A stretch of 56,269 nt of DNA from Calditrichia bacterium (GTDB taxonomy: Bacteria; Calditrichota; Calditrichia; Calditrichales; Calditrichaceae), in the NCBI GenBank assembly GCA_026983775.1, contig JALSTK010000095.1:1-56269 (forward strand), given 5' to 3'. Position numbers and translations under genes: made by a program. Position 1 is the stretch's first letter; each line of letters begins with the position of its first letter. Below are positions 34,554 through 50,258 of this stretch, in pieces. A model generated the notes under the pieces. It was not told where the DNA came from. It did not search any database and was given only the letters and a program-made list of their open reading frames with translations.

Positions 34554-36101
34554 TTAAATATCCAGTTCCCTCACGGCATCGATAATGGTCCCGTCACGCC
34601 ATTCGATCACCGCTACCACGTTATCTTTGGTTCGGGGTTTTCGCGGTTTGCCGGTGATTCGGATGGCCTTTTCGTGCAGTTCCTCGATGGACACCAACGG
34701 CAGATTGCTGCTTTTTAAGCGCTCCAGCAAATCCTCACGTTTGGGATTAACGGCGATTCCCTGGTCGGTTACAATAGCGTCTATGACGTCACCCGGGGCG
34801 GTAACGGTATGCACACGATCCACAACGATCGGATTGGTTTTACGATATAAGGGTACGGTAATGATGGTCATGAATGCATCGGCCGCATCCTGAAAACCGC
34901 CGATCCCGTGCAGCAGCCAACCGTCGGAATGGGTATTTACATTGACATTAAAGTTCAGATCGATCTCGGTTCCCCCCAACACAGACGCCTTTACTCTGGG
35001 GGCAAAACAGCCCTTGGTGTGATAGTTATAAGAGACAAAGGGATTCGTTTCGATATGATTCCAGTTGTCGCGTAAAGAAGCTACCCCGGCCAGGTCGAAT
35101 GACTGTCCGTCCAAAATAAACCGGGTTAATCCTTCCTTTAACATCTTCACCAGGGTTTCCGTGGATCCGCCGCGGACAAAATCGGCCACCACCTTTTTTT
35201 CGCGCATATATTCGGCCACATACTGAATAAAGGCCAGCGACATGCCCCCTGCGCCGGCCTGAAAGGAGAATTCCGGTTCGTCGATCAGGCCGCTGTCTCT
35301 GACAAGCTGGGCCGCCCAGGAAGCAATTTTTAAGCGATTGGGATCCGTAGTAACTTTAGTCGTACCGGAAACGATTTTTTCCGGATCGCCCAGTTTTTCA
35401 ATTGGAACCACATAATCCACATTGCCGCCTTCGATAGACCAGGGCCAGGCCGGAAAGGGTACCAGATTATCCGTAATAATGACGACTTCATCGGCATAGA
35501 GTGAATCGGCCAGAGCAAAGCCCAGAGGGCCGCAGGCCGATGGGCCCTGTACGCCATTGGCATTGCCGTGGGGGTCTGCGGTAGGAGCGGCGATAAAGGC
35601 GATATCAATGTGTAAATCACCATCCTGAATGGCCCGATACCGTCCGCCGTGCGAGCGCAGAACAGCCGTTTTTTTCATGCCTCCCGTGGTACAGAGTCTC
35701 CCCACCGGCCCGTTCATCGAACCGAGCACATGGGAAACCACCCCCCTTTTAATTAACTCAACCAATGGTTCATGGACAGGAAACAGAGCCGATGGGGCCA
35801 AAACAACATCCTTTAACCCGCGTTGGGCCAGCTTTTCCATTACCAGATTCACAATATAGTCTCCATTGCGCAGATGGTGATGGAAGGAAACGGTCATCCC
35901 GTTATGCAGGTCCAGTTTATCCAGCGCTTCGTCCAAATCCTTCAGCACCTTACTTCCGGTATAATCCGCGCCACTGGAAATGGGCGGTCCTATCTTGCGG
36001 CCCGAGGGTTTGTATCGACCGATACCTTTAAAAGGCACGGCCTGTTTTCCGTTGACTTCTATCGGGACTTCACGTCCCAAAGCGTTTTTTACCCTTTTCA
36101 T
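34554..36101 (-). CDS. citF: Citrate lyase alpha subunit (citrate CoA/ACP-transferase) CitF
   Basis: The 515-residue product matches CitF along its full length: NGMTVSFHHHLRNGDYIVNLVM (about 70), GMKKTAVLRSHGGR, DPHGNANGVQGPSACGPLGFA, TTDPNRLKIAS, FSFQAGAGGMSLA, THSDGWLLHGIGGFQDAADA and VTDQGIAVNP. In the classical complex CitF swaps acetyl on the acyl carrier protein CitD for citrate. Here no citD, citE, citC, citG or citX is near, so the acyl acceptor may be CoA itself. AAGGAGC precedes the start. The gene diverges from the trmB-type regulator and the citryl-CoA lyase operon, pointing to a joint function. Confidence 0.95.
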   Translation of the reverse strand: MKRVKNALGREVPIEVNGKQAVPFKGIGRYKPSGRKIGPPISSGADYTGSKVLKDLDEALDKLDLHNGMTVSFHHHLRNGDYIVNLVMEKLAQRGLKDVVLAPSALFPVHEPLVELIKRGVVSHVLGSMNGPVGRLCTTGGMKKTAVLRSHGGRYRAIQDGDLHIDIAFIAAPTADPHGNANGVQGPSACGPLGFALADSLYADEVVIITDNLVPFPAWPWSIEGGNVDYVVPIEKLGDPEKIVSGTTKVTTDPNRLKIASWAAQLVRDSGLIDEPEFSFQAGAGGMSLAFIQYVAEYMREKKVVADFVRGGSTETLVKMLKEGLTRFILDGQSFDLAGVASLRDNWNHIETNPFVSYNYHTKGCFAPRVKASVLGGTEIDLNFNVNVNTHSDGWLLHGIGGFQDAADAFMTIITVPLYRKTNPIVVDRVHTVTAPGDVIDAIVTDQGIAVNPKREDLLERLKSSNLPLVSIEELHEKAIRITGKPRKPRTKDNVVAVIEWRDGTIIDAVRELDI

Positions 36102-36256
36102 CGAGATGCTCCTTTTTCAATTCTCCAGGTTAAAAATTCCATAGAATTTTTCCGGAGTATAAATGTATGAGCCTTTAAAATTCATTATTTTGCATTCTTC
36201 AAATTAACGAGATGTTTTTCTCTTGAGACACATACTTTTTTACCGTACATTATTAA

Positions 36257-36279
36257 CTACTCGGGTAGGTAATATACTA
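36257..36279 (+). promoter_or_regulatory. Candidate promoter with operator in the spacer before the TrmB gene
   Basis: CTAC-TCGG-GTAG (36257-36268) is an inverted repeat, and TATACT (36274-36279) fits a -10 box. A weak -35 candidate TATTAA sits at 36251-36256 with a 17-base spacer that contains the repeat. It lies in the citF/regulator divergent gap, so it could control both sides. Confidence 0.4.
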
Positions 36280-36301
36280 TATTTCACGATAACGAGGCAA
36301 G

Positions 36302-37063
36302 ATGAAAAAAATAATTTCTTTACTCCAATCCCTCGGATTTAGCCAGTATGAAGCACAGGTATATGTGGCATTACTTAAGAAATCCAATATAACCGGATAC
36401 GAACTGGCCAAAAAATCGGGTGTACCTGCTTCGAAAATATATGCCATCCTGAACCGTCTCGAAGCCAAAGAGATGATTCAGACCGTCGGTTCCGACCCTA
36501 AAAAATATATTCCCCAACCGCCCCAGGATATTTTATCGCGGATTAAGGGTAACTATTTGCAAACCGTCAATATATTGGCCGATAAGCTGGAACAGGTTTA
36601 TGTGGAAACAGCGGATAATAATCATATTTTTAATATTTCCGGCCGCCCGGTGATTATTCGTAAGATCCTGGATTTCATTGGAGAAGCCCAAACAAGTTTA
36701 TGGCTTTCTGTTTGGGATGAAGAAGTGGAAGCTATTTCCAAAGCTCTACTTCAGGCACAAGAGAGGGGGGTGAAGATATCCATTGTACATTTTGGCCGAA
36801 AAAAATTGAACATAGGGAAAGAATATCGCCACGGAAGGGAGCATCAGATCCGAATCGAACGGGGCGGAAGACGCATCGCATTGATTGTGGATGACAGCAA
36901 AGTCATTTTAGGCCATTTTCTGGAAGACGGTTCCAGCAACGCCGCCTGGACAACCAACAAGGGTTTGGTACTACTGGCCAAAGATTATGTAATTCATGAT
37001 ATTTACACCATCCGCCTTGCCCAAAAGTTCGGCGAGGAGGCAGAGGAGATATTCAAGATATAA
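36302..37063 (+). CDS. TrmB-family transcriptional regulator
   Basis: The 253-residue regulator has an N-terminal winged helix (about 1-70: LGFSQYEAQVYVALL, KKSGVPASKIYAILNRLE) and a short coiled linker. Its C-terminal effector domain (about 110-253) resembles the phospholipase-D-like sensor of TrmB proteins (LSVWDEEVEAI, VDDSKVILGHF). TrmB proteins, best known from archaea for sugar sensing, occur also in bacteria. It lies between the divergent citF and the citryl-CoA lyase operon and is the likely controller of both; the ligand is unknown and might be the substrate of the pathway. Confidence 0.85.
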   Translation: MKKIISLLQSLGFSQYEAQVYVALLKKSNITGYELAKKSGVPASKIYAILNRLEAKEMIQTVGSDPKKYIPQPPQDILSRIKGNYLQTVNILADKLEQVYVETADNNHIFNISGRPVIIRKILDFIGEAQTSLWLSVWDEEVEAISKALLQAQERGVKISIVHFGRKKLNIGKEYRHGREHQIRIERGGRRIALIVDDSKVILGHFLEDGSSNAAWTTNKGLVLLAKDYVIHDIYTIRLAQKFGEEAEEIFKI

Positions 37064-37075
37064 AGAAAAGTAGCG

Positions 37076-37121
37076 GAAATTGGGAACCGGGAATTCGTTC
37101 CAGGTTGCCGATTACCGGTTT
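37076..37121. repeat. Intergenic inverted repeat A of the citrate cluster
   Basis: AACCGG (37085-37090) and CCGGTT (37114-37119) enclose further weak pairing (GGAAC / GTTCC). A similar GGGAA-and-CCGG-rich composition recurs in three other gaps of this cluster. Confidence 0.5.
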
Positions 37122-37158: not shown

Positions 37159-37935
37159 ATGTCCGACCTGCACTGGAAAACCGCCATCACTAAGGTGGAG
37201 CCCAATAAACTGACGGTACGCGGTTATGAACTGGACAAACTGATCGGCCGGGTGAGCTATGCTCAAATGGTTTATCTGCTGTTTAAGGGTGAACTGCCAT
37301 CCGAAAATATCGGTAAAATGGTAGAAGCCATTCTAACTTCCTCGGTGGATCACGGCACCACACCGCCTTCGGTGCTCAGCGCTCTGACCGTCGCCTCCAC
37401 CGGCGCTCCGCTGAACGCCGCGGTGGCGGCCGGAATTTTATCCATTTCCAAATTTCACGGCGGTGCTATCGAAGATTGCATGTATATTTTACGTCAGGGA
37501 ATGGAATTGGTCAAAGAAGATCATATGGATTTTGAATCCGCCGCCGAAAAAATTATTAGTGATTACCGAAGTGCGAAAAAACGCTTATCAGGCTTCGGAC
37601 ACCGTTTTCATACCAGAGACCCGCGCACCCGCCGCTTGTTCGAATTAGCCGAAGAATATGGCGTTGCCGGAGATTATGTAAAACTAGCCAATGTCTTTGT
37701 TAATATGCTGAAAAAAATTACCGGTAAGGAGCTGCCTTTAAATGTGGACGGAGCCATTGCAACGCTTTTATGCGAAATGGATTTTGATCCCGTTTTAGCC
37801 AATGCTTTTTTTATGATATCCCGCATTCCCGGTCTGGTAGCTCATATTTATGAAGAAAAGACCCGTCAGAAACCCATGCGTAAAATTCATCCTACGGATG
37901 TGGAATACGACGGCCCGGAGGATAGAGTGTTATAG
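37159..37935 (+). CDS. ccl: Citryl-CoA lyase / citrate synthase-like protein
   Basis: The protein (258 residues from ATG 37159, preceded by GAGGAGA) corresponds to the C-terminal catalytic half of citrate synthases and to citryl-CoA lyase of the reductive TCA cycle (about 260 residues). All three catalytic regions are visible: HGGAIEDC near 101, SGFGHRFHTRDPR near 147, and the end MISRIPGLVAHIYEEK where the third (acidic) site lies. The reaction is probably citryl-CoA to acetyl-CoA and oxaloacetate, or the reverse. Paired with CitF, it could replace CitE. Synthases of other alkylcitrates or malate-type Claisen enzymes are alternatives. Confidence 0.85.
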   Translation: MSDLHWKTAITKVEPNKLTVRGYELDKLIGRVSYAQMVYLLFKGELPSENIGKMVEAILTSSVDHGTTPPSVLSALTVASTGAPLNAAVAAGILSISKFHGGAIEDCMYILRQGMELVKEDHMDFESAAEKIISDYRSAKKRLSGFGHRFHTRDPRTRRLFELAEEYGVAGDYVKLANVFVNMLKKITGKELPLNVDGAIATLLCEMDFDPVLANAFFMISRIPGLVAHIYEEKTRQKPMRKIHPTDVEYDGPEDRVL

Positions 37936-38035: not shown

Positions 38036-38059
38036 TTTACCCAAATGAAAGGATCGTAT

Positions 38060-38596
38060 ATGAGGAATCAAGTTTTGGAACTGCTCCCGGAGATCAACGA
38101 AATCGAAAATACGGAATTAAAAGAAAAAGTAATCGCCTGCTGGGAGGAAGCCATTGCCTACCGTAACTGGAGCAATGAAGAGCTACGTTCCATCCCCTTT
38201 ACCCTTCTGGCGGAAAACGTACAAATCAAATTCATCGAGCATGTGCGCACCTGCTGCAAAATGGGTCTGGCCTGTGACCGGGTTCTCTCCGGAGCTTACG
38301 GCGAGCGCAAGACTGCGATTAACCGCGACTATTTTGTAGCCGGATCACTTTTAGCCGATGTGGGTAAATTACTGGAATATGATAAAAATCCGGATGGAAC
38401 GATTTTCAAAAGTGCTTATGGCAAACACCTTCGCCATCCTTTTAGTGGTGTCGGACTGGCCTTTAAACATAATCTTCCTTCTGAAGTGATGCATATTATT
38501 GCCACGCATTCCAAGGAAGGAGACGGTGAAAAGCGGTCTCCCGAGTCCATACTGTTTCATCATGTGGATTTTATAGACTTTGAACTGGTTAAATAA
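38060..38596 (+). CDS. Small HD-domain-like protein
   Basis: The protein (178 residues from ATG 38060, preceded by AAAGGA) has the HD-superfamily helices with His in FIEHVRTCC (about 60), His at LRHPFSG and ATHSKEGDGE, and Asp in HHVDFIDF. The central dyad His-Asp is replaced by Ala-Asp in LLADVGKLLEYD (about 98), so one metal ligand is missing. It may therefore be a divergent hydrolase or a binding protein. It sits between the lyase and dehydrogenase genes of the citrate cluster; the role is unknown. Confidence 0.7.
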   Translation: MRNQVLELLPEINEIENTELKEKVIACWEEAIAYRNWSNEELRSIPFTLLAENVQIKFIEHVRTCCKMGLACDRVLSGAYGERKTAINRDYFVAGSLLADVGKLLEYDKNPDGTIFKSAYGKHLRHPFSGVGLAFKHNLPSEVMHIIATHSKEGDGEKRSPESILFHHVDFIDFELVK

Positions 38597-38729: not shown

Positions 38730-39848
38730 ATGGCAAAATACAAGATAGCCTGGTTACCGGGCGACGGAGTGGGCAATGATGTGATGGAAGCGGCACGCGT
38801 TGTTCTGGACGCGTTGCAATTTGATGCCGAATATATCCCCGGCGACATCGGCTGGGAATTCTGGAAACATGAGGGAGACCCTTTACCCGGCCGCACTATT
38901 GAAATGATGAAACAAACCGATGCGGCCCTTTTTGGTGCTATTACCTCCAAACCTAAAGAGGAAGCCGCTGAGGAATTAGATGATTCTTTAAAAGGAAAAG
39001 GATTGGTCTATTTTTCACCCATTGTTCGTCTACGTCAGGAGTTTAACCTTCATACCAACCTGCGGCCCTGTAAAGCCTACCCCGGAAATCCTCTCAATCT
39101 GAAGGAGGGCATCGATTTGGTTGTATTCAGGGAAAATACAGAGGGTATGTATGGCGGTGTGGAATTTCACCCCATTCCTCAGGAGGTTTATGATGTAATC
39201 GCAAAATACAATTCGAAGATGAAAAAATTCGAAAAATACGGTTTGGAAAACGTGGCCATGTCCACCCGTATCATGAGTCGCCAGATGTGCCGCAACATTG
39301 TTACCCGTGCTTTCGATTACGCCAAGGAACATGGTTATAAATCGGTCACGGTAGTCGATAAGCCCAATGTGCTGCGTGAAACCGGAGGATTAATGGTGCG
39401 CACGGCGCGGGAAGTGGCCAAAAATTATCCGGAAATTGAGCTATGGGAGACCAACATTGACGCCCAAACCATGTGGCTGGTCAAGAATCCCATGGACTAC
39501 GGAGTACTGGTTGCCGAAAACATGTTTGGCGATATAATATCCGACCTGGCTGCCCAGTTGGTCGGCGGGTTGGGATTTGCTTCCAGCGGAAATATAGGAG
39601 ATCATTATGCTGTCTTTGAGCCCACCCACGGTTCGGCTCCCAAATATGCCGGCCAGTACAAGGTGAATCCTATGGCCATGCTGCTTACTTGTAAACTGAT
39701 GCTGGACTGGCTAAAAGAGAAAGAAATGGCCAATAAACTGGAGAACGCTATCGCTAAGGTCATTAAAGAAGGTAAAGTCAAAACCTATGACATGGGCGGA
39801 AACAATACGACTTTGGAAGTAGCCCAAGAAGTAGCAAAGAAGCTATAA
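38730..39848 (+). CDS. Isocitrate/isopropylmalate dehydrogenase family enzyme
   Basis: The 372-residue product carries the family start LPGDGVGNDVMEAA, the substrate-binding TNLRPCK and VVFRENTEGMYGG (NTEG as in isocitrate, homoisocitrate and D-malate enzymes), the active-site Lys/Tyr regions (VTVVDKPNVLRE) and AENMFGDIISDLAAQL. The coenzyme loop reads THGSAPKYAGQYKVNP, like E. coli NADP-dependent isocitrate dehydrogenase (Lys-Tyr), not the Asp of NAD enzymes. I infer an NADP preference. The enzyme likely oxidises a 2-hydroxy-acid with a beta-carboxylate; isocitrate is the simplest candidate given the neighbours. Confidence 0.88.
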   Translation: MAKYKIAWLPGDGVGNDVMEAARVVLDALQFDAEYIPGDIGWEFWKHEGDPLPGRTIEMMKQTDAALFGAITSKPKEEAAEELDDSLKGKGLVYFSPIVRLRQEFNLHTNLRPCKAYPGNPLNLKEGIDLVVFRENTEGMYGGVEFHPIPQEVYDVIAKYNSKMKKFEKYGLENVAMSTRIMSRQMCRNIVTRAFDYAKEHGYKSVTVVDKPNVLRETGGLMVRTAREVAKNYPEIELWETNIDAQTMWLVKNPMDYGVLVAENMFGDIISDLAAQLVGGLGFASSGNIGDHYAVFEPTHGSAPKYAGQYKVNPMAMLLTCKLMLDWLKEKEMANKLENAIAKVIKEGKVKTYDMGGNNTTLEVAQEVAKKL

Positions 39849-39927: not shown

Positions 39928-41301
39928 ATGGAAAAATATATTACCTATCAATTGGCCGAGTTCACCAAAAATTTACGGTATAAGGATTTGACCGAAGAAA
40001 CGATTACTAATGTTAAGCGTTTTTTACTGGATGCCATCGGCTGTGCCTTTGGCGGCAGCCAAACCGAAGATGTTAAAATTATGCTTGATTTCTATAATGA
40101 AATGGGAGGCAAAGCAGAGGGAACCGTGATTAATTCGAAAGTCAAGCTACCCATTCTAAATCAATCTTTGCTTAATTCCTTGATGATTCGCGCCCTGGAT
40201 TATAACGATATATACTGGGAAGAAGACCCTTCTCATCCCAGCGACCTAATCCCGGCGGCTTTAAGTCCCGCCGAGGCAGAGCATAAATCGGGCAAAGAGC
40301 TGATTACAGCGATCGCCCTGGCCTATGAATGGGAACAACGGTTGTGTGAATTTGCCCATCCCGGCGTAAGGGAAACCAAATGGCATCACGCCACCCTCAC
40401 TCAATTCGCATCGCCCCTGGCAGCCGGTAAGATGCTCGACCTCACGGTGGAACAATTGGTACACGCCATGGGTATTTCGGCCAGCCATAATCATACGCTG
40501 GGCGTGGTAACTGCCGGTGATCTAACGATGATGAAAAATACGGTCGATCCCATGGCCGTACAATCCGGATTGCAGGCTGCATTATTGGCCCGGCGCGGCT
40601 ACGAAGGTCCTGCCCATGTAATCGACGGTAAGGAAGGATTGGTGGATGTGTTCAAAGACAATCAATTTGAGTTGAATGTTCTAACCGATGGACTGGGTGA
40701 AACGTTTCGCATAAACCGCTGCTCGATGAAGGCCTTTCCCACGGAAGCATTGACCCATACTCCCATGTCTGCCGTTATCAAACTGATGCATGAACAACAT
40801 ATCAAAAAAGAGGACATTGAGCAGATTACCATCGGCACAGTCGCCCGTGCAGCCGATATTCTATCCGATCCTTCCAAATATAATCCGCAAACCCGGGAAA
40901 CGGCCGATCATAGTTTACCCTATTGCATAGCGGTTTGTGTAGTAGACGGTACCGTTACGCCGGCTTCTTTTTCCAAAGAAAAAATCATGGACCCCGTAAT
41001 CCGTTCCTTTCTTCCCAAGATTAAGGTCCAGGCCGTTGCTGAGTTTGAAAAAACGTTTCCCAAGCTAAAGCAGGCCAGTGCGGAAATTCTTACCAAAGAC
41101 GGCAGGAAACATAACATTGTTCTGGATTATCCCTTAGGCGACTATCGTGAACCGATGGATGAAGAAACTCTGCTTAAAAAATTCGATGCCATGGTATTGC
41201 CGTTGACCGGCCGGGATAAGCGAAATAAAATCGTAGACGCCATTATGAATCTTGAGCGAGTGGCGGATGTGGCCGATCTAATGACTTTATTGAAGAGATA
41301 A
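39928..41301 (+). CDS. MmgE/PrpD family protein
   Basis: This 457-residue protein belongs to the MmgE/PrpD superfamily, which includes 2-methylcitrate dehydratase and cis-aconitate decarboxylase. Visible are RFLLDAIGCAFGG (about 35), RALDYNDIYWEEDPSHPSDLIPAAL (about 90-115; Asp and His of the active-site region), the helical AMGISASHNHTLG and the C-terminal RETADHSLPYCIAV. The substrate cannot be read; dehydration or isomerisation of a tricarboxylate such as citrate, or decarboxylation of cis-aconitate, are candidates. It ends the cluster. GGAAAGGA precedes its start. Confidence 0.9.
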   Translation: MEKYITYQLAEFTKNLRYKDLTEETITNVKRFLLDAIGCAFGGSQTEDVKIMLDFYNEMGGKAEGTVINSKVKLPILNQSLLNSLMIRALDYNDIYWEEDPSHPSDLIPAALSPAEAEHKSGKELITAIALAYEWEQRLCEFAHPGVRETKWHHATLTQFASPLAAGKMLDLTVEQLVHAMGISASHNHTLGVVTAGDLTMMKNTVDPMAVQSGLQAALLARRGYEGPAHVIDGKEGLVDVFKDNQFELNVLTDGLGETFRINRCSMKAFPTEALTHTPMSAVIKLMHEQHIKKEDIEQITIGTVARAADILSDPSKYNPQTRETADHSLPYCIAVCVVDGTVTPASFSKEKIMDPVIRSFLPKIKVQAVAEFEKTFPKLKQASAEILTKDGRKHNIVLDYPLGDYREPMDEETLLKKFDAMVLPLTGRDKRNKIVDAIMNLERVADVADLMTLLKR

Positions 41302-41475: not shown

Positions 41476-42210
41476 TTAGTTTGTTCTGGAAGAATTGAAG
41501 GCAACCAGCTTATCCCAATTTATGACACCATCTTCACAAAAATCTCTGGCAAATTCAAGAGTAAATTTATTTACGATACTCGCATAGGCTTGCTGAAACG
41601 CTTCATTTTTTTCTTTGGCTTTATAGCCTAACGGTTCGATGATATCTTTATACAGATTTTCTTTACCAGAAATAAACTCCCAGAATACCTGGCCACAATA
41701 CTTAAAATACTCTCCTTTATCAGGACGATTATCCCTGCCATAACAGCAGCCGTTCACGGCAACTACATGCAAATTGGACTGCCCTGTCCGTAAGACACGT
41801 TTAGCTTTACGAAAATTATCCTTCATTTTGCTGATTTGACTGCTATTGCCCCAATGAGGACCGGATTTAATAGAAACAATATATCTAATATCATCCTTAC
41901 TAAATTCGAGGTCTATCCCTTCCGTTGATGACTTGCGACCGCCATAAATTCTCTGATTAATAAAGATTGCCAAATTTTCTAAAAAATCACCGAAGATGGT
42001 TTCTTCCTGAGAAGAAAGATGAGCGTCAACAATAGATTTAACTAAATCCTGCGCCATCAATATATTTTTTGCTTTAAAGAGATATGGATTTTTTCTCTTG
42101 AGAACTTGAGACAATTTCAATTGATCAATATTATCTAATCGTTTGGTATGGAATGTTCCTATATGGGATTCAACATAGCGGATTATCTCATTCATTCTTA
42201 GCGGTTTCAT
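41476..42210 (-). CDS. Type II restriction endonuclease, PmeII-like
   Basis: The 244-residue protein contains a PD-(D/E)xK-type core: STEGIDLEFSKDDIRYIVSIKSGPHWGNSSQ (about 105-135), with Asp and the Ser-x-Lys element at their usual spacing, followed by VVAVNGCCYGRDNRPDKGEYF. This pattern is typical of the PmeII family of type II enzymes. Its start overlaps the methyltransferase stop by 23 bases, and the Shine-Dalgarno AAAGGT lies within that gene, so the modification enzyme is translated first. It degrades unmodified foreign DNA; the recognition sequence is unknown. Confidence 0.8.
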   Translation of the reverse strand: MKPLRMNEIIRYVESHIGTFHTKRLDNIDQLKLSQVLKRKNPYLFKAKNILMAQDLVKSIVDAHLSSQEETIFGDFLENLAIFINQRIYGGRKSSTEGIDLEFSKDDIRYIVSIKSGPHWGNSSQISKMKDNFRKAKRVLRTGQSNLHVVAVNGCCYGRDNRPDKGEYFKYCGQVFWEFISGKENLYKDIIEPLGYKAKEKNEAFQQAYASIVNKFTLEFARDFCEDGVINWDKLVAFNSSRTN

Positions 42211-43048
42211 AGGTTACACCTTTATCAAACAAGGTTAGCACGGATGGTTGAATTTGGCGTGACATTAAATTATAATATTTTTCGTTAATTTCTATGCCGA
42301 TTGAATTTCTTCTCATTCTTTGGGCTACACGAAGGGTTGTTCCGGAACCTGCAAAAGGGTCCAAAACCCAGTCTCCCTCCTCTGTAAAAAGTTTTATAAA
42401 CCATTCCGGTAATGCTTCGGGAAATGCGGCACTATGATTTTTATTACCACATTCGGTAGCCATATGCAGCACATTGGTTGGATAGGCCATTTCCCGGCCC
42501 AGCCAATTTGAAATATTTTTACCGAATCCGCTATTTACCCGTGATTCATCCCGAATTTTATCCCGCTCATTCAACTTCTTTAACCGTGTATCGGCCCAGG
42601 AACCCATGGGGACCATAACCGCTTCCTGATACATTTTAAATTTCTTGTTTTTATTAAATTGCAATAAACGTTCCCATGAATCCCTAAACCGGTTCGGCCA
42701 CTTGCCAGGATAAGAATTCTTTTTATGCCATATAAATTCTTCCGTCCAAAACCATCCTTGTTCACGCATCTTCATAATCAATTCCAATACATAGGTATGG
42801 CGTTCTCCGTTAACCACCCTTTCTTTTATATTAAGAATAAATGTACCGGAGGACTTTAAGACACGGAGAAGCTGCTCTGCTATAGGTAAAAACCATTCGA
42901 CATACTCATTAGGGTGAATGCCGCCGTAGGTTTTTTTTCGGGCATCGGCATACGGCGGTGAAGTTACAATCAAATCAATCGAATTTTCTTCGATTGCTAT
43001 TAATTCTTCCAAACAATCACCCAAAATTATTTTACTTTGTATTTCCAT
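42188..43048 (-). CDS. DNA methyltransferase (amino, beta-class; probable N4-cytosine or N6-adenine)
   Basis: The 286-residue methyltransferase has motif IV TSPPYADARK near 30 ahead of motif I DPFAGSGTTLRVAQRM near 240, the beta-class order. The SPPY form is most often found in N4-cytosine enzymes, although N6-adenine enzymes with it exist. It protects the host from the coupled endonuclease. No specificity subunit is present, so target recognition must be in the central region. Confidence 0.88.
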   Translation of the reverse strand: MEIQSKIILGDCLEELIAIEENSIDLIVTSPPYADARKKTYGGIHPNEYVEWFLPIAEQLLRVLKSSGTFILNIKERVVNGERHTYVLELIMKMREQGWFWTEEFIWHKKNSYPGKWPNRFRDSWERLLQFNKNKKFKMYQEAVMVPMGSWADTRLKKLNERDKIRDESRVNSGFGKNISNWLGREMAYPTNVLHMATECGNKNHSAAFPEALPEWFIKLFTEEGDWVLDPFAGSGTTLRVAQRMRRNSIGIEINEKYYNLMSRQIQPSVLTLFDKGVTYETAKNE

Positions 43049-48845: not shown

Positions 48846-50258
48846 CTATCCCACCGTATGCAGACGCAGCAGATTGGTACCTCCCCGTTCCTGGGTGGAC
48901 CCCGCAATTAAAACAATTTTATCCCCCGATTGAACAAATCCGTTTTTCTTAAGATAGGATTCCAGTATGGTCAGTTGCTCTTTAATTTCGATAGTGTGTT
49001 CCAAAAAAGAAGGAAAGACACCCCAATACAAAGACAAACGATGTAAGGCCGACTGGTTATTTGTTAAGGCTAAAATTGGTACGGACGGTCTGAAATTAGA
49101 CATGATTTTCGCCGTCATCCCACTGCGGGTTAAAACCACAATATATTTGGCCCCGATCTCCCTGGCACTGTAATAAGCGGCATGACATACGGAATGGGTA
49201 TAGCTTAAGACTTTAGTTTGCTCGCGGTCTGCGATATGAATCCGGAAAAAACGCCGGTTACTTTCCGCCTCCTCAATAATATCGGCCATCATTTGTACGG
49301 ATTCAAGTGGATATTTCCCAAAAGCGGTTTCGCCGGAAAGCATAACCGCATCGCTTCCGTCAAAGATGGCATTGGCCACATCCGAGGTCTCGGCGCGGGT
49401 TGGAACGGGATTGATCATCATCGAATCCAGCATTTGCGTGGCCGTGATCACCGGTTTGGAAGCCAAAAGACATTTTTCGATAATCTCTTTTTGAACAACC
49501 GGAACCCGGGAAGCGGATATTTCTACTCCCAGATCCCCGCGGGCTACCATTACCCCGTCGGTCTCGGCAATGATTTCATCCAGATTGTCCAGTGCTTCCG
49601 GTTTTTCCAGTTTAGCAATAACCGGCACCTGCCGATCACCCATAAACTGCTTGATATCCCGAATGCTCTGAGCATCGCGTACAAAGGACAAGGCCACATA
49701 ATCTACCTCCTGCTCCAAACCGAATTTAAGATCCCGTTTGTCTTTCTCCGTCAGGGAAGGTTCGGAAATTTGTACTCCCGGCAGATTAATGCCCTTATGG
49801 TCATATAGATTCCCGCCGTTAATGACTTCACAAAACAGATCCGCCCCTTTTTTTTGAACTACTTTTAATTTAATCAAACCGTCGTTTACCAGGATGCGGT
49901 CTCCGATCCGTACGTCTTTGGGGAGATTCTTATAGGAAGTGCTGACAATGTGCTCATTGCCGGGTACATCATCGGTGGTAATGGTGAACAGATCTCCGGG
50001 ATTAAGCTGGATGGGAGGTTCCTCAAAAGTACCGATGCGAATTTTGGGGCCCTGTAAATCCTGTAAAATGGCGATGGGATGCCCCACTTGTTGCGCTACC
50101 TTTCGAATACGCCGGATATTCCGTTTGTGCTCTTCGTGGCTGCCGTGGGAGAAATTCAGCCGGGCCACATTCATTCCTGCCCGGGCGAGGCGGGTAAGCA
50201 TCTCTTCCGACTCGCTGGTCGGGCCGATTGTACAAACGATTTTAGCCTTTCGGGACAT
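48846..50258 (-). CDS. pyk: Pyruvate kinase
   Basis: This 470-residue enzyme converts phosphoenolpyruvate and ADP to pyruvate and ATP. Visible are KIVCTIGPTSE (start), the phosphate-binding VARLNFSHG, the Mg/Lys site region AKLEKPEALDNLDEI, DGVMVARGDLGVE, ITATQMLDSM and the C-terminal domain ETAFGKYPLESV onwards. The C-terminus ends soon after the allosteric-domain fold. The gene is monocistronic; the terminator is not apparent. Confidence 0.97.
   Translation of the reverse strand: MSRKAKIVCTIGPTSESEEMLTRLARAGMNVARLNFSHGSHEEHKRNIRRIRKVAQQVGHPIAILQDLQGPKIRIGTFEEPPIQLNPGDLFTITTDDVPGNEHIVSTSYKNLPKDVRIGDRILVNDGLIKLKVVQKKGADLFCEVINGGNLYDHKGINLPGVQISEPSLTEKDKRDLKFGLEQEVDYVALSFVRDAQSIRDIKQFMGDRQVPVIAKLEKPEALDNLDEIIAETDGVMVARGDLGVEISASRVPVVQKEIIEKCLLASKPVITATQMLDSMMINPVPTRAETSDVANAIFDGSDAVMLSGETAFGKYPLESVQMMADIIEEAESNRRFFRIHIADREQTKVLSYTHSVCHAAYYSAREIGAKYIVVLTRSGMTAKIMSNFRPSVPILALTNNQSALHRLSLYWGVFPSFLEHTIEIKEQLTILESYLKKNGFVQSGDKIVLIAGSTQERGGTNLLRLHTVG

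Follow-up and report, generated by a model that had tools for sequence, protein, structure and literature searches.

Citrate lyase is a textbook enzyme built around a covalent, CoA-derived cofactor. In its classical form (Klebsiella, E. coli), CitD, CitE and CitF are accompanied by CitC, CitX and CitG, and the cofactor is attached to CitD at Ser14 in the AGTLES motif. In the 1970s, Dimroth and Eggerer reportedly found that subunits of the Klebsiella enzyme work in vitro when isolated, the transferase with acetyl-CoA and the lyase with citryl-CoA. A CoA-transferase followed by a lyase acting on a free CoA thioester is also used in itaconate degradation, where RipA is followed by RipC/Ccl, a citramalyl-CoA lyase. 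In Hydrogenobacter thermophilus, citrate is cleaved in two steps by citryl-CoA synthetase (CCS) and citryl-CoA lyase (CCL) (Aoshima 2004, as cited in PMC5441870). CitF is a class II transferase; MdcA of malonate decarboxylase, the other one that works with an acyl carrier, relies on a prosthetic group of the same type borne by MdcC; this related transferase has no acidic active-site residue, and direct acid/acyl thioester transfer was proposed for it (PMC5534430).

The window, i.e. the whole stretch of 56,269 nt analysed here, is contig C95 of a 179-contig genome (4.03 Mb, 99.5% complete) of the phylum Calditrichota. It carries the single citF gene of this genome (34554-36101, minus strand), encoding the citrate lyase alpha, or citrate transferase, subunit of 515 aa with an ATG start. 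The product matches PF04223 with 490 bits (cut-off 27), covering profile positions 3-465 of 466, and the NCBIfam equivalog model TIGR01584 (citF) with 532 bits (cut-off 501); the claim of the original prediction that the full-length CitF motifs are intact thus holds. All positions invariant among 37 CitF proteins are preserved as well. Given motifs that are both intact and conserved, this CitF is no relic. The AlphaFold2 model (pLDDT 91.9) is closest in fold to two citrate lyase alpha subunits, 2hj0 (TM 0.92) and 1xr4 (TM 0.87), and its fold is related to that of MdcA (5vit, TM 0.61). The relatives compared were the nearest 80 of at least 429 loci, which is not a census; among these 80 the closest CitF proteins, with 80-90% identity, came from Caldithrix and other Calditrichota metagenome-assembled genomes (MAGs).

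Other parts of a classical citrate lyase were not detected. Profile searches of the whole 4.03 Mb assembly detected no CitD (PF06857), CitX (PF03802) or CitG (PF01874) at E<=1, and no CitE-type protein (PF03328) above threshold; the two sub-threshold PF03328 matches had 18-19 bits, one of them a pyruvate-kinase-like ORF in the window (48846-50258). As a control, the CitD, CitE, CitX and CitG models each found their E. coli target. CitC acetate ligase was not found in the neighbourhood of CitF within the window. Thus, neither a CitD with the attachment serine, nor CitE, nor the CitX and CitG pair is detectable genome-wide. The original prediction had described CitF as lacking carrier and maturation genes nearby, and had named citD, citG and citX elsewhere in the genome as the finding that would speak against it; none was detected, and for CitD, CitX and CitG the absence extends from the neighbourhood to the entire assembly.

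The label ‘orphan’ did not survive, since a citryl-CoA lyase gene lies ~1 kb away in a divergent operon. A 200-bp intergenic region (36102-36301) is common to citF and to this operon, which starts with a gene for a TrmB-type transcription regulator (36302-37063, plus strand; PF01978, 77 bits). The second gene (37159-37935, plus strand) encodes a citryl-CoA lyase (Ccl) of ~258 aa; the listed ORF begins with TTG at 37105, and the ATG at 37159 is the likelier start. Ccl matches NF004866 with 292 bits (cut-off 245), and its nearest solved structure is citryl-CoA lyase 6hxp (214 bits, compared with 71 for the best citrate synthase). The motifs HGGA, GHR and NVDG are invariant among nine sequences, as are His103, His151 and Asp200 (fragment numbering), which we take to be the catalytic His/His/Asp triad of the citrate-synthase fold. 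Then follow, all on the plus strand, genes for an HD-domain protein (38045-38596; PF01966), a constant companion of the cluster; an isocitrate/homoisocitrate-type dehydrogenase (Iso_dh; 38730-39848; PF00180, 293 bits); and an MmgE/PrpD-family hydratase (39928-41301; PF03972, 230 bits; PF19305, 138 bits). As judged from sequence, the hydratase probably interconverts citrate and isocitrate in the manner of aconitase. A citrate synthase homologue is encoded elsewhere in the genome (contig C29), and in view of it the reason for having the cluster is not self-evident. Directly after the cluster, at 41476-43048, the window encodes an EcoO109I-family type II restriction endonuclease (PF14511, 314 bits) and an N6/N4 DNA methylase.

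We propose that Ccl replaces CitE (and CitD). The best reading of the locus is a citrate lyase free of the prosthetic group, and we consider it likely that CitF and the divergently encoded Ccl act as a two-protein enzyme on free coenzyme A. First, CitF would function as an acetyl-CoA:citrate CoA-transferase, converting citrate and acetyl-CoA into citryl-CoA and acetate; second, Ccl would split citryl-CoA into acetyl-CoA and oxaloacetate. Acetyl-CoA would be regenerated and hence catalytic, standing in for the acetylated phosphoribosyl-dephospho-CoA covalently bound to CitD. The net reaction would yield acetate and oxaloacetate from citrate, with neither ATP nor prosthetic group, and would make CitD, CitE and citX/citG dispensable, and presumably citC, which encodes the priming ligase, as well. 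With the neighbouring hydratase and dehydrogenase, 2-oxoglutarate and isocitrate would be linked to citrate and then to acetate and oxaloacetate. The cleavage direction is favoured at cellular concentrations, and is presumably the one used here; running backwards, the two steps would incorporate acetate into citrate. According to the original prediction, an independent CoA-transferase function would be a new use of the CitF family. A transferase role independent of CitD is indeed the best reading, while the use itself is most likely still citrate cleavage rather than something unrelated.

Compared with the classical system, the proposed enzyme has the same CitF and the same ATP-free net reaction; it differs in lacking CitD, CitE and CitX/CitG, in using free acetyl-CoA instead of a carrier-bound cofactor and in having a lyase of the citrate-synthase fold in place of the TIM-barrel CitE. 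It shares with the CCS/CCL pathway a second step in which the same Ccl family, with 6hxp as nearest solved structure, acts on free citryl-CoA. However, a CoA-transferase, CitF, would supply the citryl-CoA in place of an ATP-dependent synthetase, and acetate rather than net acetyl-CoA would be formed. Malonate decarboxylase, in turn, depends on its carrier and acts on malonate. The likeness to the itaconate route lies in the order of events, a CoA-transferase and then a C-C lyase on a free CoA thioester, whereas RipA is a class I CoA-transferase, RipC is a CitE-like TIM-barrel lyase and the substrates are different. A prior description of the CitF and Ccl pair was not found in the open-access literature searched, and the word ‘citrate’ is absent from the main text of the Caldithrix abyssi genome paper (PMC5317091).

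Comparison with relatives showed that parts of the cluster are exchanged. Genome G001 (locus L101) belongs to the same genus as three genomes with both Ccl and CitF (G002-G004) and has no Ccl; its cluster reads TrmB, IDH, HD, aconitase, a CitD-CitE fusion and CitF, so that the CitDE fusion holds the functional place of Ccl. The position of PrpD in this cluster is filled by an aconitase-family enzyme of the aconitase/LeuCD type. Genome G030 (L118:5558-9409) has a Ccl-HD-IDH-PrpD cluster without CitF, and a SucD-like protein and a SucC-like ATP-grasp protein with a match to the citrate-binding domain PF16114 just above cut-off are encoded directly upstream of Ccl. This make-up hints at a citryl-CoA synthetase, another potential source of citryl-CoA; such subunits were not found beside Ccl in the window. 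CitF thus appears to be exchangeable for another citryl-CoA-forming enzyme. In Synergistaceae, HD, aconitase and IDH genes stand beside a classical CitD-CitE-CitF set with Ser14 and CitX. Together, these three cases indicate that the cluster serves to cleave citrate and couples this to (iso)citrate metabolism by means of interchangeable modules. Separately, we observed homologues of the HD protein (38045-38596) in L101 and beside citDEF in Synergistaceae; this protein accompanies either kind of citrate lyase cluster, in Calditrichota as well as in Synergistaceae.

These observations bear on an alternative in which the two-step chemistry on free CoA is the same and belongs to a different acid-degradation pathway, with a citrate analogue (2-methylcitrate, homocitrate or citramalate) as the true substrate. 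A familiar member of the MmgE/PrpD family is 2-methylcitrate dehydratase, and the top scores of the dehydrogenase were with models for homoisocitrate dehydrogenase (AksF2, 342 bits), none of which reached its cut-off. Against this, the PrpD position is occupied by the aconitase/LeuCD-type enzyme in G001, the Synergistaceae with Ser14 CitDEF and CitX keep the same HD-aconitase-IDH companions, pointing to citrate and isocitrate, and Ccl scores with citryl-CoA lyases. We therefore regard an analogue as an unlikely substrate and retain citrate.

CitF was present in 15 of 40 genomes of the phylum. Thirteen of these genomes have CitF without CitD, and all 13 have Ccl over the cut-off, compared with four of the 25 genomes without CitF (G011, G023, G030 and G033); Fisher's test gave p = 4e-7 for 13/13 versus 4/25 with kinship ignored, and, as most of the 13 come from one family, the association represents few independent events. 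Nor is the pair obligate, given the four genomes with Ccl and no CitF. The divergent arrangement of citF and trmB is kept in eight relatives (L103-L105, L108, L110, L111, L113 and L114), and the full order, citF facing away from TrmB-Ccl-HD-IDH-PrpD, in several genera (L103-L105, L110, L111, L113 and L114); other loci are split over contigs. In G022, CitF is separated from the cluster and located on a different contig. A Ccl-HD-IDH-PrpD cluster was also seen at L119:5636-9934, where no CitF and no synthetase is encoded close by.

A palindrome, TTAACTACTCGGGTAGGTAATATACT, is conserved upstream of trmB (36253-36278, plus strand; TTAACTACTnnGGTAGGTAA at 36253-36272). It was found upstream of trmB with 0-4 mismatches in 10 relatives (L103, L104, L105, L108, L110, L111, L113, L114, L116 and L117) and in a weaker form in L101 (G001) and L102 (G036); other loci totalling 907 kb contained 12 matches at <=7 mismatches. 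The palindrome is probably the operator of the TrmB-type regulator. Since it lies nearer to trmB than to citF, control of citF by TrmB is something that we only infer; near the detached CitF of G022 the palindrome was not found.

Outside the phylum, the CitF and Ccl pair was detected in Thermoplasmatota archaea. In L042 and L044, the gene after citF on the same strand encodes a Ccl over the cut-off, and in L043, L045 and L046 a longer Ccl-like protein below it. None of these genomes has CitD, and the four tested for CitX and CitG have neither.

If CitF and Ccl were not partners, Ccl could be fed by an ATP-dependent citryl-CoA synthetase encoded elsewhere, or run as a synthase, and CitF would be an unrelated CoA-transferase or a relic. 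The synthetase-like pair beside Ccl in G030, the presence of Ccl without CitF in G011, G023 and G033 and the separate location of CitF in G022 would all fit. The divergent arrangement kept in eight relatives, the 13/13 co-occurrence, the separate adjacency of CitF and Ccl in archaea and the intact, conserved CitF motifs argue for a partnership, and we find the two genes quite unlikely to be unconnected. The third alternative, a classical acyl carrier that is too divergent for recognition or falls into an assembly gap, could appeal to the 179 contigs and to the short, variable CitD sequence, but is highly improbable with CitE, CitX and CitG missing too, with a genome 99.5% complete and with the same pattern repeated in 13 genomes of the phylum and six archaeal genomes; because of this repetition we reject an assembly gap as the cause.

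The original prediction had raised a possible loss of the CitD-contact surface of CitF. Of the columns conserved in CitD-partnered CitF proteins, 5/117 are changed in the window CitF, which falls inside the 2-16 seen in other clades; these are alignment columns and not a CitF-CitD contact map. With so few differing columns, we found no clear CitF signature of free-CoA use, and TIGR01584 scores the protein as an ordinary CitF. As for residues that might mark a CitF partnered with Ccl, both Ccl lineages have Lys421 and have lost Arg422, but the overlap of changed columns between them amounts to only two, which is near chance, and we keep this as a lead only.

In the unrooted tree of 84 CitF proteins, a clade whose CitD partners have Ser14 is separated (SH-aLRT 95) from a clade whose partners are Ccl or CitD proteins with Lys or Arg; the window CitF belongs to this second clade, which is without CitX. 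Calditrichota and archaeal Ccl types fall on separate branches inside the second clade, which means that the partnership with Ccl had either two or more origins or several losses. The sister nearest to the Calditrichota CitF set comes from an Acidobacteria MAG (L015), which has no CitD and a Ccl of 259 bits. Two further loci were noted. In a 1.9 Mb Firmicutes MAG (L078:5806-8376), CitF is followed by CitE, and no CitD, CitX or CitG was found; this is possibly another carrier-free arrangement, judging by gene content. A Syntrophobacterales MAG with an Arg-type CitD has two adjacent weak Ccl-like matches (~86 bits; G072:C59:234-1930).

In the second clade, Lys occupies the Ser14 position of CitD in Krumholzibacteriota, Latescibacterota, Riflebacteria, an Actinomycetota MAG and DHVE2 archaea, and Arg in the Calditrichota fusions, L041 and L082. 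CitD of the Lys/Arg type in genomes without CitX/CitG was located at L101:10033-11268 and L102:9040-10278, in L016, L018, L021-L024, L027 and L031 (CitDE fusions) and in L029-L036 (archaeal CitD). An initial listing of Krumholzibacteriota and Riflebacteria loci as lacking CitD was wrong, CitD being fused to CitE there. Some of the Lys/Arg proteins have a serine one position later, so that a one-step alignment shift is conceivable there; the archaeal EKGD and the KKGD of L023 are without any serine. A Lys-type CitDE fusion was modelled with AlphaFold (pLDDT 86) with its N-terminus trimmed, and the model has no bearing on the Lys14 position. CitX was absent in 11/11 Lys/Arg genomes with a readable residue and present in 8/8 Ser14 controls, and CitG is distributed along the same split. 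This contrast follows essentially one split of the tree and is thus correlative, with few independent events behind it. Genome G059 has both types, a classical citC-D-E-F-X locus with Ser14 (L120) and a Lys-type fusion (L039). Two clostridial CitD proteins (L049 and L054) have Ala at position 14 and CitG present.

The residue change suggests that a cofactor-free CitDE preceded the replacement of CitDE by Ccl; with the CitF tree unrooted, gain of the cofactor in the Ser14 clade is equally allowed. More broadly, the whole CitF clade (Calditrichota, Krumholzibacteriota, Latescibacterota, Riflebacteria, Acidobacteriota, Thermoplasmatota archaea and others) may run citrate lyase on free CoA. Some members would do so with a Lys/Arg CitD-like domain that might hold free CoA non-covalently; in others, and seemingly on two or more occasions, Ccl would have taken over from CitD and CitE. 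For this wider reading, we see the case as evenly balanced.

If the wider reading is true, covalent phosphoribosyl-dephospho-CoA would be dispensable for citrate lyase or even a later addition. Lineages that retain the CitF transferase and have neither the carrier nor the cofactor genes would demonstrate that the enzyme can do without the cofactor, and the Lys/Arg-type CitD fusions would be natural intermediates for its gain or loss. The CitF and Ccl pair would also add an ATP-free route of citrate cleavage beside ATP-citrate lyase (ACL) and CCS/CCL, and surveys of the reductive TCA cycle that seek only ACL or CCS/CCL (e.g. PMC9802188) would miss such organisms or misread a lone Ccl.
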